Positions 2,332 to 61,334 of a stretch of 64,000 nucleotides of DNA are shown here, piece by piece. The notes under the pieces were generated by a model, which searched no databases, was not told the DNA's origin, and saw only the letters and a program-made list of their open reading frames with translations. A program made the translations under genes and the position numbers. Each line of letters begins with the position of its first letter. Within the stretch, counting starts at the first letter, position 1. The DNA comes from Pseudogemmatithrix spongiicola (lineage in GTDB: Bacteria; Gemmatimonadota; Gemmatimonadetes; Gemmatimonadales; Gemmatimonadaceae). The stretch spans positions 1,798,001 through 1,862,000 of the forward strand of contig NZ_CP130613.1 in assembly GCF_030623445.1 (NCBI RefSeq), read 5' to 3'.

Positions 2332-3627
2332 TTACGCGGTCAGCGGAGACACCTGCAACCGCGCCATCGCGTCGCCGACGGTGTGAAAACTGCCCGTCAC
2401 GAGGACGGTCGCGCCGCGCGTCGGTGCCACGGCCAACGCCCGGTCGAAATCCCGCTCCAGCTCGGCACGCCAGCCGCGACTCGCGCAGTACGCGAGGACC
2501 TCCCCGCTATTCCAGGCGCGGCTCGCCGGCGCCGTCGGCGCGTCGGTCAACACAAAGTGGTCCACGGCCTCGGCCAGCGCCGAGAGCATGCCCCGCCAGT
2601 CCTTGTCCCCAAGGACGCTGACCAGCGCGACTACCGGGCCCTCGACGGCCATGCCCCGCAGCGTCAGGGCCGTCACGGCCGAGCCATCGGGATTGTGCGC
2701 GACATCAAAGATCCACGCGCCGTGACGCGAGAACCGTCCGGGCAGGCGTACGGCCTGGAGCGCCGGCAGGGCGTCCTCGACGGGGCGCCACAGGTCCGGC
2801 GGCAGGGTGTCGAGCATCGTCAGGGCCGTCATCGCGTTCTGCGCCTGGTGCCTGCCGGCCAGCGCAGTCGAGACCCGTAACGTGCCGGAGGGCCGGATCC
2901 AGTCGAAGGCGGTCCCCTGCGCCGTCACCTGGATGTCTGTCGCCTGCCCCTCGTCCGCCACGACGCGGATTGGCGATGCGCCGTGTCGACGGCCCTCAGA
3001 CGCCAGGATCTCCCGGATGCCTGCGTCAGGCTCCCCAATCACGGCGGGGCGCCCGGCCTTGAAGATGCCCGCCTTCTCGGGTGCAATCGCCTCGCGCGTC
3101 GTGCCCAGCCACTCGGTGTGGTCGATCCCGATGCCCGACACGCCCGCGACCATCGGCTGCACCACATTGGTCGCGTCCAGTCGGCCACCGAGCCCTGTCT
3201 CCACCACCGCCACGTCCACACCGGCGTCCACGAAGAGCTGGAAGCCCATCGCCGTGGTCGCCTCGAAGAACGTGGCGCCGCGTCGCTCGACGGCCGGCGT
3301 CCAGCGCTCGAGCCAGGCAGCGATCGCCGCGTCATCGACCGGACGCCCATCCACGATGAAGCGCTCGCGGAAGTCCACCAAGTGCGGCGAGGTGTACTTC
3401 CCCACCCGCAGCCCGCGCGCGCGCAGCGCGGCCTCGAGCATCGCGCATACGCTGCCCTTGCCGTTGGTGCCGGCCACGTGCAGCACGCGCAGGGCGCGAT
3501 GCGGGTCCCCGAGCTCGGCGAGGAAGCCCGTCACCCGTTCCAGGCCGAGCTTCCATTGTCCGGTCGTGCGGGCGAACAGCGCGTCGAGCGCTGCCCGATA
3601 CGCGGCGTCGCTCAGGTGGACGACCAC
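2332..3627 (-). CDS. folC: Folylpolyglutamate synthase / dihydrofolate synthase
   Basis: ATP-dependent Mur-ligase-family enzyme that adds glutamate to dihydropteroate and folates. It has 431 residues. The P-loop is GTNGKGSVCAML at about residues 53-64. It is followed by GKYTSPHLVDFRERF, the ETGLGGRLDATN signature and the GIDHTEWLGTTREAIAPEKA folate-pocket region. The late FDVAHNPDGS motif marks the C-terminal ligase domain. The start is GTG at 3627, which overlaps the end of accD by 16 nt and suggests translational coupling. Pairing of accD and folC is common in bacteria and supports the assignment. Whether it has both activities cannot be decided from sequence alone. Confidence 0.95.
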   Translation of the reverse strand: MVVHLSDAAYRAALDALFARTTGQWKLGLERVTGFLAELGDPHRALRVLHVAGTNGKGSVCAMLEAALRARGLRVGKYTSPHLVDFRERFIVDGRPVDDAAIAAWLERWTPAVERRGATFFEATTAMGFQLFVDAGVDVAVVETGLGGRLDATNVVQPMVAGVSGIGIDHTEWLGTTREAIAPEKAGIFKAGRPAVIGEPDAGIREILASEGRRHGASPIRVVADEGQATDIQVTAQGTAFDWIRPSGTLRVSTALAGRHQAQNAMTALTMLDTLPPDLWRPVEDALPALQAVRLPGRFSRHGAWIFDVAHNPDGSAVTALTLRGMAVEGPVVALVSVLGDKDWRGMLSALAEAVDHFVLTDAPTAPASRAWNSGEVLAYCASRGWRAELERDFDRALAVAPTRGATVLVTGSFHTVGDAMARLQVSPLTA

Positions 3628-16614: not shown

Positions 16615-16642
16615 GTTGCGTCATATCGATAAACGATATACC
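16615..16642 (+). promoter_or_regulatory. Probable promoter of the DUF2975/XRE cassette
   Basis: A -35-like TTGCGT at 16615-16620 is followed after 16 bp by a -10-like TATACC at 16637-16642. The match is moderate. The -10 lies inside the inverted repeat described in the next entry, which is what a repressor-controlled promoter would look like. Confidence 0.4.
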
Positions 16643-16653
16643 GTTTATCGATA
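16624..16653. promoter_or_regulatory. Perfect 12-bp inverted repeat, probable operator for the XRE regulator
   Basis: The arms TATCGATAAACG (16624-16635) and CGTTTATCGATA (16642-16653) are exact reverse complements separated by 6 bp. The site ends 15 bp before the first start codon of the cassette and covers the proposed -10 box. Its A+T content stands out from the surrounding sequence. Autoregulation by the HTH protein encoded two genes downstream is the simplest reading. Confidence 0.65.
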
Positions 16654-16668
16654 ACCAACCTCGCCACC

Positions 16669-17202
16669 ATGAAGCTCTTCGCCCCCGCCCCCTCCAACGC
16701 CGTCCGCCTCGCCTGGCGGGCCCTCGGCCTCCTGACCCTCGGCAACGGGGTCTATGCCCTCTTCGTCCTGGGCATGGGGCTCGCGCTCCTCATCGCCCCG
16801 GACGCCACGATGACGGCCATCGGCGTCCGCGAGGACGTCGACCGCAGCCGCATCCTCCCCGCCATGCGCGTACTGGTGCTCATCGGGCTCGCCGGGGCCT
16901 ACCTCGTGCATCGGCTGCTCAAGACCCTGCGGGCCATCGTTAGCACGATCGGTGACGGCGACGCCTTCGTGGCCGCAAACGCCGACCGGCTCGAGACGCT
17001 CGGCCGCCAGCTCATCGGGCTCGAGCTGCTGCACCTCGCCGTGGGCCTCGTGACCTCGCTCGGCTCCACCGCCCAGCAACCCCTCGACGTGGACTGGAAC
17101 TTCTCGGTCACGCCCTGGCTCACGATCCTGCTGGTCTTCGTGCTCGCGCAGGTGTTCCGCGAGGGGGCGCGCTTGCGCCGCGAACTCGACGGCGTGGTCT
17201 GA
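16669..17202 (+). CDS. DUF2975-family membrane protein
   Basis: Integral membrane protein of 177 residues with four hydrophobic segments (about 20-45, 65-80, 110-130 and 140-155). Between segments 2 and 3 it has [20 protein letters not shown], which matches the D/N/R pattern of DUF2975 proteins (GD-PF-x-x-x-N-x-x-RL). It is followed after 3 nt by a small HTH gene, and this pairing is typical of DUF2975 proteins in many phyla. The biochemical role of the family is unknown. The start ATG at 16669 lies just after the inverted-repeat operator. Confidence 0.82.
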
Positions 17203-17205
17203 CCC

Positions 17206-17439
17206 ATGGCCATCATCGTCCGGCTGGACGAACTCCTCGCTGACCGCGGCATGACGCTCACCGAACTCTCGCAGCGCGTCGGCATCACGCTCGCCAACCT
17301 CTCGGTGCTCAAGTCGGGCCGCGCGCGCGCCGTCCGCTTCTCCACGCTCGCCGCCGTCTGCGACGCCCTCCAGTGCCAACCCGGCGACCTGCTCGCCTAC
17401 GACGCCACCGTCCCTGACCGCGAGGATGACGATGCCTGA
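17206..17439 (+). CDS. Small XRE-family transcriptional regulator (YozG-like)
   Basis: A 77-residue DNA-binding protein that is essentially one Cro/CI helix-turn-helix domain. The HTH runs through MTLTELSQRVGITLANLSVL, with the recognition helix region KSGRARAVRFSTLAAVCDAL and the characteristic ending QPGDLLAYD. The Asp/Glu-rich C-terminus is short. Position directly after the DUF2975 gene, and a perfect 30-bp palindromic site upstream of that gene, make autoregulation likely. Its last 14 nt overlap the next gene. Confidence 0.88.
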   Translation: MAIIVRLDELLADRGMTLTELSQRVGITLANLSVLKSGRARAVRFSTLAAVCDALQCQPGDLLAYDATVPDREDDDA

Positions 17440-17905
17440 CCTCCGCACGCCCCTGCTCCGCTTCCTGCGCCCCGACCACGCGCGCTGGGACGGCGTGCGC
17501 CCCATCCAGGTGGCGACGCTCCGCCTCTTCTACTTCCTCATGGCCGCGTTCGTCGCGACGGACGCGTGGCGCGGCATCCTGACCCACACGGGCCCGTGGG
17601 ATCCCGTGCGCGCCGTGGCCGTCTGCGTGTGGGCGGCGTATCCCACGCTGGGCATCCTCGGGCTGTGGCATCCGCTGCGCATGCTGCCGTTGATGCTCTT
17701 CATGGTCAGCTACAAGACGCTTTGGCTCGCCGCGGTCGCCTTCCCACTCTGGCGCGAGGGTGAGCTCTGGGGCACGCCGACCGGCGACATGGCGCAGGCC
17801 TTCCTCGCCTTGCCGGTGGTGCTGCTCGCGATCCCCTGGGGCTACGTGTGGCGCGAGTTCGTGCGGCCGCCGCGCCGCAGCCCCACCTCGGCGGCGCTCC
17901 CGTGA
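17426..17905 (+). CDS. Hypothetical membrane protein with four predicted helices
   Basis: The protein has 159 residues and four hydrophobic segments (about 27-47, 60-80, 83-105 and 123-143). I do not recognise a family. It has an N-terminal RFLRPDHARWDGVRPIQVAT and a short basic, proline-rich C-terminus. The start is ATG at 17426, or ATG at 17432. The gene overlaps the XRE regulator upstream and shares a 4-nt GTGA overlap with the next gene, so it is part of the same cassette. A role linked to the regulator is inferred only from this arrangement. Confidence 0.75.
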   Translation: MTMPDLRTPLLRFLRPDHARWDGVRPIQVATLRLFYFLMAAFVATDAWRGILTHTGPWDPVRAVAVCVWAAYPTLGILGLWHPLRMLPLMLFMVSYKTLWLAAVAFPLWREGELWGTPTGDMAQAFLALPVVLLAIPWGYVWREFVRPPRRSPTSAALP

Positions 17906-18576
17906 ACTGGCTGCACGCCCTCGGGCGCAACACGCACATCGCCATGGGCACGCTGGGCCTCCTCTCCGGCGCGCTGGCCATGATGCTCCGCAAGGGCTCG
18001 CGCACGCACGCCCGCGTCGGCCACGTGTTCTTCGTCTCGATGACGCTCATGGCGAGCACGGGCACCATCCTCTCGATGGTGCCGGAGCTCGACCGAGTGA
18101 ACATCGCCGGCGGCTCGCTCGCGCTCTACCTCACGATCACGGCGTGGGTCACGGTGGAGCGCCGCCCCGGCAGCGTGGGTCGGGCCGAATGGCTCATGGC
18201 GGCGGCTGGTGCCGGCGCGGCCATCCTGCTCTTCTCGTTCGCCGCTCGTGCGGCTGGAATCCCGGCCGAGGCGGGAGCGGTGCCGTTCTTCTCCGCCTTC
18301 GGAAGCATCCTCGCGCTCAGCGTGGCCGGAGACGTTCGGCTCATCCGGCGCGGCGGGGTCCAGGGCCGCGCCCGCACCACACGGCACCTCTGGCGCATGT
18401 GCACCGCCATGCTGCTGGCCACGCTCTCGCTCTTCCTGGGGCAGCCGCAGGTCTTCCCCGACGTGCTACGCGAGCGCGGCCTTCTCGCCGTGCCGCCCGC
18501 GCTCGTCGTCGCCGCGCTGCTGTACTTCCTGGTTCGCGAACGTGCGCGAGCGCCGCGTGCACTCCGCGCGCGCTAG
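17902..18576 (+). CDS. DUF2306-like multi-pass membrane protein
   Basis: I place the start at GTG 17902, inside the stop of the previous gene (GTGA), giving 224 residues that begin VNWLHALGRNTHIAMG. Longer forms would overlap the upstream gene by about 60 nt. About six to seven hydrophobic segments are visible. The pattern HIAMGTLGLLSGALAMMLRK, then THARVGHVFFVSMTLMASTG, fits DUF2306-like proteins, whose function is unknown. The C-terminus is short and Arg-rich. It is the last gene of the cassette and converges on rseP with only 7 bp between the stops. Confidence 0.72.
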   Translation: MNWLHALGRNTHIAMGTLGLLSGALAMMLRKGSRTHARVGHVFFVSMTLMASTGTILSMVPELDRVNIAGGSLALYLTITAWVTVERRPGSVGRAEWLMAAAGAGAAILLFSFAARAAGIPAEAGAVPFFSAFGSILALSVAGDVRLIRRGGVQGRARTTRHLWRMCTAMLLATLSLFLGQPQVFPDVLRERGLLAVPPALVVAALLYFLVRERARAPRALRAR

Positions 18577-47770: not shown

Positions 47771-47809
47771 CGACGGGAGCGCCTCAGCGAGGCGCTCCCG
47801 TCGTGTTTT
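47771..47809 (+). terminator. Rho-independent-type terminator after tRNA-Gly
   Basis: A perfect 15-bp stem, arms 47771-47785 and 47789-47803, with a 3-nt loop is followed by TGTTTT. It lies 21 nt downstream of tRNA-Gly and 17 nt upstream of tRNA-Leu, so the two tRNA genes are probably separate transcription units. Confidence 0.78.
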
Positions 47810-60428: not shown

Positions 60429-61334
60429 TCAGCGCGCGCCCTCAGGGGTTCCCGCGAGGGACAGCTGCGCCGCGCGCACCGTATTGGCAAGCAGCATCGC
60501 GATCGTCATCGGCCCTACGCCACCCGGCACCGGCGTGATCTTCGAGGCCCTCGCGGCGACTTCGTCGAACTTCACGTCGCCGACGATGCGATAGCCCCTC
60601 TTCTGCGAGGCATCGTCCACGCGATTGATGCCCACGTCGATCACCACCGCGCCCGGCTTCACCATGTCGGCGGTGACCATCTCCGGCTTGCCGATGGCCG
60701 CAATCAGGATGTCCGCGCGCCGCGTATGCTCGGCGAGGTTCTTCGTGCGCGAATGACAGATCGTCACCGTGCAGTCGGCGCCCTTCCCGCTCTGGATGAG
60801 CAGCGCGGCCATCGGCTTGCCGACGATCGTGCTGCGGCCGAGGATGACCGCTTCCTTGCCCGAGGTCTCGACGCCCGCCTCCTGCAGCATCACCTGCACG
60901 CCGGCCGGCGTGCAGGGCGCGAAGCCGTCGGCATCGCCGATCAGCACCTTGCCCGCGTTCACCGGATGGAAGCCATCCACGTCCTTCATCGGATCGATGC
61001 GGCGGATCACCTTCTGCGCGTCGATGTGCTTGGGCACCGGCATCTGCACGAGGATGCCGTGCACCGCCGGATCGGCGTTGAGCTTGTCGATGACCGCGAG
61101 CAACTCGGCTTCTGGCGTCGAGGCGGGCAAGCGAATCGTCTCGCCGTTCATGCCCGCTTCCTTGCAGGCCTTCTCCTTGGCGCCCACGTAGAACGCACTC
61201 GCCGGGTCATCGCCGACGAGCACGACGGTGAGCCCCGGCGTGACACCCTTCGCCTTCAGCGCCTCGGCGTCCTGCGCCACCTTGGCGCGGACCTTCGCGG
61301 CAATCGCGACGCCATCGATCCGTTCAGCGGGCAA
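60429..61334 (-). CDS. folD: Bifunctional methylenetetrahydrofolate dehydrogenase/cyclohydrolase
   Basis: Interconverts methylene-, methenyl- and formyl-tetrahydrofolate. It has 301 residues from the TTG at 61334. This is a rare start, but GAGGAG lies 8 nt upstream, and other starts either lie inside rny or cut off the conserved N-terminus ([20 protein letters not shown]). [20 protein letters not shown] contains the catalytic region. [18 protein letters not shown] and the NADP-binding [16 protein letters not shown] follow. [20 protein letters not shown] is the C-terminal signature. It overlaps rny by 11 nt. Confidence 0.95.

Follow-up and report, generated by a model that had tools for sequence, protein, structure and literature searches.

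The window, a stretch of 64,000 nucleotides of the Pseudogemmatithrix spongiicola genome with a G+C content of 0.68, contains a gene for a DUF2975 membrane protein followed by one for a small XRE-type DNA-binding protein, with a palindrome ahead of the pair that coincides with a putative promoter. The features of the locus, in window coordinates, are:

16616-16621, forward strand: putative -35 hexamer TTGCGT, aligning with the TTGACG/TTGCCG of homologues, 17 bases before the -10
16623-16639, no strand assigned: candidate operator O1, ATATCG-ATAAA-CGATAT, with 2/12 mismatches to TTATCG-N5-CGATAA
16638-16654, no strand assigned: candidate operator O2, ATACCG-TTTAT-CGATAA, with 2 mismatches and its centre 15 bp from that of O1
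16639-16644, forward strand: putative -10 hexamer TACCGT, at the same place as TATCGT/TATTGA/TATTGT in homologues and within the left half of O2
16669-17202, forward strand: DUF2975 membrane protein, 177 aa (PF11188, 41.7 bits against a cut-off of 27, E 1.3e-10)
17206-17439, forward strand: XRE-type DNA-binding protein of the HTH_26 family, 77 aa (PF13443, 81.5 bits against a cut-off of 22, E 5.3e-23)
17426-17905, forward strand: membrane-like protein, 159 aa, the third gene, overlapping the XRE gene by 14 bases
17848-18576, forward strand: ORF of 242 aa with an uncertain start, a possible fourth gene (weak DUF2306 match, PF10067, E 8.5e-4, below the cut-off)

The DUF2975 gene is present as a single copy in the genome. 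Both members of the pair score above the Pfam gathering cut-offs for DUF2975 (PF11188) and HTH_26 (PF13443), families to which the sources searched assign no mechanism, while the XRE protein, at 33.2 bits, falls well short of the 150-bit cut-off of the VanU model (NCBIfam NF000090). The predicted structure of the DUF2975 protein, with a mean pLDDT of 94.6, has four long helices and a short one, and a search of the PDB by fold at E 0.001 gave no match to it. The model of the XRE protein, with a modest pLDDT of 70, has a short strand at either end of a helical bundle; it too had no PDB match at E 0.001, the best, at 1.8e-3, being to a generic helix-turn-helix protein. The nearest solved chain to this protein is VanUg (3tyr), with a sequence E of 7e-7 and a fold rank of 8. 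The label "YozG-like", which the earlier note had given to the XRE protein, is one that we take on assumption, and YoaS is presumably a DUF2975 protein.

No Pfam family matches the 159-aa protein, which is 51-54% identical to the product of the third gene in five other loci (L031, L038, L043, L061 and L080), mostly Lysobacter-like. Among the genes downstream of the pair across loci no common Pfam family was found, and 32/75 loci lack a downstream ORF of at least 90 aa. The predicted three-gene operon is conserved and is common to Gemmatimonadota and Gammaproteobacteria. The ORFs on the other side of the palindrome, transcribed away from it, resemble what we take to be ribosomal protein S15 and polynucleotide phosphorylase.

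The earlier note had drawn attention to a perfect 12-bp inverted repeat with a 6-bp spacer in front of the pair, and this is found at 16624-16653 as TATCGATAAACG-ATATAC-CGTTTATCGATA, with exact arms and 15 bases between its end and the ATG of the DUF2975 gene (16669). Its description as an unusually A+T-rich exact palindrome also holds: TATCGATAAACG occurs just once in the whole genome (3,257,781 bases searched), and dinucleotide shuffles of the window (n=60), which contained a mean of 0.4 exact inverted repeats with arms of at least 12 and loops of 0-12, gave arms equally A+T-rich in 0/60. The window itself has three such repeats, and the two besides the palindrome, at 47771-47803 (arms 15) and 60893-60916 (arms 12), are G+C-rich (0.8). 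The spacer had been said to cover the -10 box, which is correct for one half of the inferred -10, but the other half lies in the right arm. Likewise the palindrome is a real site but not, as it seems from comparison with other loci, the real unit, which was redefined as the 17-bp dyad TTATCG-N5-CGATAA, present here twice. The palindrome appears to be two abutting 17-bp operators rather than one 12-6-12 unit; two such operators take on this exact form when they meet in opposite orientation. Within the genome, TATCGATAAACGATA is found with no mismatch only at O1, and with at most one mismatch only at O1 and O2.

O1 sits between the inferred -35 and -10, and O2 overlies the -10. These hexamers are poor matches to consensus in the window; a strict sigma-70 consensus scan found no promoter at the palindrome, and no Shine-Dalgarno sequence is evident ahead of the DUF2975 gene. 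The same frame is visible among relatives. DUF2975 relatives were found in 7/148 genomes of the family and 16/395 of the phylum, from which 11 family or class genes (the window's own included) and one further locus (L026) were kept, weak partial matches within ORFs of about 900 aa (L024, L025, L027 and L028) being dropped. CGATA/TATCG half-sites lie upstream of 11/11 of the family and class genes, in most cases on a promoter-like frame of TTGACG/TTGCCG, about 17 bases and TATCGT/TATTGA. The site is present with at most 2/12 mismatches upstream of 9/11 and with at most three upstream of 11/11.

To go beyond the phylum, 12 aligned XRE proteins served as the query in a scan of species genomes and the best 80 of 584 confirmed loci were kept; going by record titles, these span Pseudomonadota, Actinomycetota, Verrucomicrobiota, Acidobacteriota, Bacteroidota, Planctomycetota, Chloroflexota, Bacillota and Gemmatimonadota. 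Removed before counting were L034 and L037, on the same contigs as L004 and L008, L062 at a contig edge, and L056 and L092, where no upstream ORF of 120 aa was found (in L092 a short match to DUF2975 and a single site came to light). The protein encoded upstream was DUF2975 in 75/77 cases tested, that is 76 loci and the window's own. By neighbourhood and Pfam the upstream protein of L039 is a tRNA synthetase, and in L094 the adjoining upstream ORF is unlike DUF2975 and the sites lie further up. In the alignment of 12 XRE proteins the recognition region TLANLSVLK is nearly invariant; the scan selected for a near-identical recognition helix in most sequences, and covariation of helix and site is absent from the data set.

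A de novo count of 8-letter words ahead of the 76 loci was led by AAACGATA, present in 32/76 regions compared with 0.4 expected in shuffles, followed by AACGATAT, AACGATAA, ATCGATAA and TATCGATA. Expectation-maximisation on 86 regions, seeded with the window's sequence, converged on tTATCGAAAAACGATAa (25.6 bits), which is the dyad TTATCG-N5-CGATAA. The earlier note had predicted the palindrome to be the XRE protein's DNA target, suggested looking for it ahead of other DUF2975/XRE pairs and named its absence there as a refutation. The prediction withstood this check. With at most 2/12 mismatches the dyad is found in 79/85 regions from nine named phyla, the window included, the loci being kin by descent so that these counts are not independent events. 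The regions extend up to about 1.26 kb, and L061, at a contig edge, and L039 were left out of them. At least two sites, each with at most two mismatches, occur in 47 of the 85, and allowing three mismatches raises the number of regions with a site to 84/85. The six regions without a site at two mismatches are L007, L022, L040, L070, L073 and L076, and L073 has none even at three. By group, with labels assigned from record titles, sites with at most two mismatches are present in Alphaproteobacteria 28/28, Gammaproteobacteria 11/11, Actinomycetota 19/19, Gemmatimonadota 9/11 (plus L026), Acidobacteriota 3/3, Bacteroidota 3/3, Verrucomicrobiota 2/4, Chloroflexota 1/1, Planctomycetota 1/1, Bacillota 1/2 and one Pseudomonadota MAG 0/1. 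TTATTG/CAATAA halves are seen in Bacteroidota and some others.

The 119 other half-site permutations, arranged as dyads, were present in at most 16 of the 85 regions (median 1), and compared with the 79 regions at a spacer of 5, any other spacer from 0 to 15 gave at most 24, a number reached at a spacer of 14, where it may come from neighbouring sites. In regions of fixed length, which include L039, a site with at most two mismatches was observed in 58/74 compared with 0.82/74 in shuffles. Within the DUF2975 gene itself it was found in 0/74, and in far-upstream stretches in 11/73, which is put down to promoters located further up. Even at three mismatches the site is missing from the fixed 360-base windows of 13/74 regions; in 11 of these it lies at a greater distance, sometimes with small ORFs in between, and the remaining two are L039, which is not a DUF2975 locus, and L073.

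Bacillaceae pairs, fetched after the rule had been fixed, gave a similar result. DUF2975/XRE pairs are common, PF11188 being present in 89/101 genomes of a Bacillaceae-centred sample, and 30 loci, a subset of all matches, were taken. The XRE gene adjoins DUF2975 in 30/30, and a site, typically TTATTGTAAAACGATAA, lies ahead of the pair with at most two mismatches in 28/30 and with at most one in 23/30, the genomes being related and representing few independent events. Permuted half-sites reached at most 2/30 and other spacers 0.

Throughout the genomes the site is concentrated at the pair. In 20 other genomes the 17-bp rule, at no more than one mismatch, was matched at 65 places, compared with 73 for a reversed control pattern; 19/65 fall within the pair's own locus, in 13/20 genomes, although that locus makes up only about 0.1% of the bases. 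Two further places of the 65 lie before an unlinked DUF2975 gene in a Nocardiopsis genome. No larger regulon was found in the window's own genome (at most one mismatch) or in the 20 genomes, and because the excess of sites is seen only at the pair's locus the regulator looks to be a local one. Together with the presence of the dyad ahead of the pairs and its fixed spacing, this locus-only excess supports the prediction that the XRE protein has its DNA target here. It is very improbable that the site is owned by some other, genome-wide regulator and stands here by chance. The absence of a site from L039, with its XRE gene behind a tRNA synthetase, could be cited in favour of such a regulator, but L039 lacks both DUF2975 and the site and is consistent with the target belonging to the XRE protein. 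A separate owner is also difficult to reconcile with a site that tracks the gene pair across phyla and shows no excess outside it in the 20 genomes.

The genomes G432 and G428 each have a second site, surrounded by ORFs that give no hint of the pair. In the Nocardiopsis locus (L165) the DUF2975 gene is at 1732-2343 on the reverse strand, with no XRE gene within the 5 kb read, and sites at 2347 and 2377 lie between it and a divergent ORF at 2427-3128 on the forward strand, CAAX protease-like by eye. The Nocardiopsis gene is a candidate trans target, as if it were served by an XRE protein encoded elsewhere.

The geometry of the sites also bears on how they would be read. The two half-sites of a dyad are separated by 11 bp, a single helical turn, which suits a dimer of the Cro/CI type. 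Within arrays the distance from dyad to dyad is mainly 22 bp (32 pairs, 29 regions) or 16 bp (22 pairs, 22 regions); 21 bp (12 pairs, 8 regions) and 15 bp (5 pairs, 5 regions, among them the window and L020) also occur. Several of the 22-bp arrays have one half-site on the -35 and one on the -10, and in the Gemmatimonadota arrays of this spacing the -35-like hexamer is one half-site and the -10 the next. Between the operators and DUF2975, several Parvularculaceae-like and Erythrobacteraceae loci have small ORFs of about 40-60 aa, membrane- or signal-like by eye; loci with such ORFs are among L057, L063, L068, L084, L089 and L102 (Parvularculaceae-like) and L065 (Erythrobacteraceae).

An RNA hairpin, acting as an attenuator or mRNA stability element in place of an operator, is scarcely credible as an explanation of the palindrome. 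A 12-bp stem could form in the window, with a folding energy of -14.0 kcal/mol, but the inferred -10 lies within the palindrome, most of which would consequently stay untranscribed, and no terminator-like site was found there. Nor would a hairpin explain why the conserved unit is a 17-bp dyad with copies set at intervals of 15, 16, 21 or 22 bp; the lone site in Bacillaceae has a folding energy of just -1.9 kcal/mol.

The nearest characterised relative of the XRE protein is VanU_G (PDB 3tyr), itself a small XRE protein, from the vanG operon of Enterococcus faecalis. VanU_G represses its own promoter, where its binding sites are two adjoining, imperfect palindromes that span -70 to -20; once mutated, the palindromes are not bound (PMC4405338). 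The layout in the window is similar, with the adjacent palindromes O1 and O2 overlapping the inferred -10 and adjoining the inferred -35, and the XRE protein would resemble VanU_G in repressing itself from two palindromes over its own sigma-70 promoter. In contrast to the XRE pair, VanU_G governs a resistance operon together with VanR_G and has no DUF2975 partner described in the portion of the literature available on it.

It would seem very probable that the XRE protein represses its own operon through abutting operators that cover the -35 and -10, and autorepression is the best reading because the arrangement is of the same kind as that of VanU_G. A dimer of the 77-aa protein would read each TTATCG-N5-CGATAA dyad; bound over the -35 and -10 it would block RNA polymerase, and the operon for DUF2975, the XRE protein and the 159-aa protein would in this way repress itself. 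Action of the XRE protein as an activator or mixed regulator from the same sites is quite unlikely. Arrays with at least three copies over at least 70 bp, for example in Parvularculaceae, would suit an activator, as would the weakness of the inferred -35 and -10 in the window. Against this, the sites of the window, like those of several 22-bp arrays, are placed on or between the -35 and -10, where a bound dimer would be expected to block the polymerase, and VanU_G represses from sites so placed.

DUF2975 may relieve the repression in answer to a signal at the membrane or from outside the cell. For this role the nearest model to work from is CylR1/CylR2, belonging to the cytolysin operon of Enterococcus faecalis: a membrane protein is encoded there together with a small DNA-binding protein, and the two are thought to relay a signal to the promoter (PMC3709268). 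The window has the same type of layout, its genes pairing a small XRE protein with a membrane protein of several helices. The structure of CylR2 (2xiu) is a weak fold match to the XRE model, at rank 32, with TM 0.71/0.83 and 12% identity. The two systems differ in that CylR1 has three predicted membrane helices compared with the four long helices of DUF2975, and in the genes regulated. Pairs of the kind seen in the window, a membrane protein gene beside an Xre gene, were listed by Makarova, Wolf and Koonin in 2009 as YoaS-like/Xre, with 32 cases of a "likely permease" and Xre, and were set aside as not toxin-antitoxin; the accessible part of that paper gives no operator or mechanism for them (PMC2701414). 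No operator, function or regulation of the DUF2975/XRE pair was found in the literature searched, whose coverage mostly excluded subscription papers. What appears to be new is a widely conserved candidate operator for an uncharacterised module, the regulator itself being of an ordinary kind.

A wider proposal, which we put forward tentatively and consider rather doubtful as a whole, is that DUF2975/XRE modules from at least nine phyla have retained a single repressor-operator code, TTATCG-N5-CGATAA, and that DUF2975 counters the repressor directly, tethering the XRE protein to the membrane in response to a signal. If true, the pair would be a widespread two-protein relay from membrane to promoter that works without phosphorylation, with CylR1/CylR2 as a distant parallel. 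A rule that spans Gemmatimonadota to Bacillaceae offers a probe for gel-shift experiments and would allow the regulon of a strain, mostly the pair itself, to be read from its sequence; with it, the part played by the membrane partner becomes a question for a reporter assay. In seven of the Bacillaceae-centred genomes (G478, G517, G489, G474, G467, G528 and G532) two DUF2975 matches lie about 500 bases apart, possibly as tandem genes.
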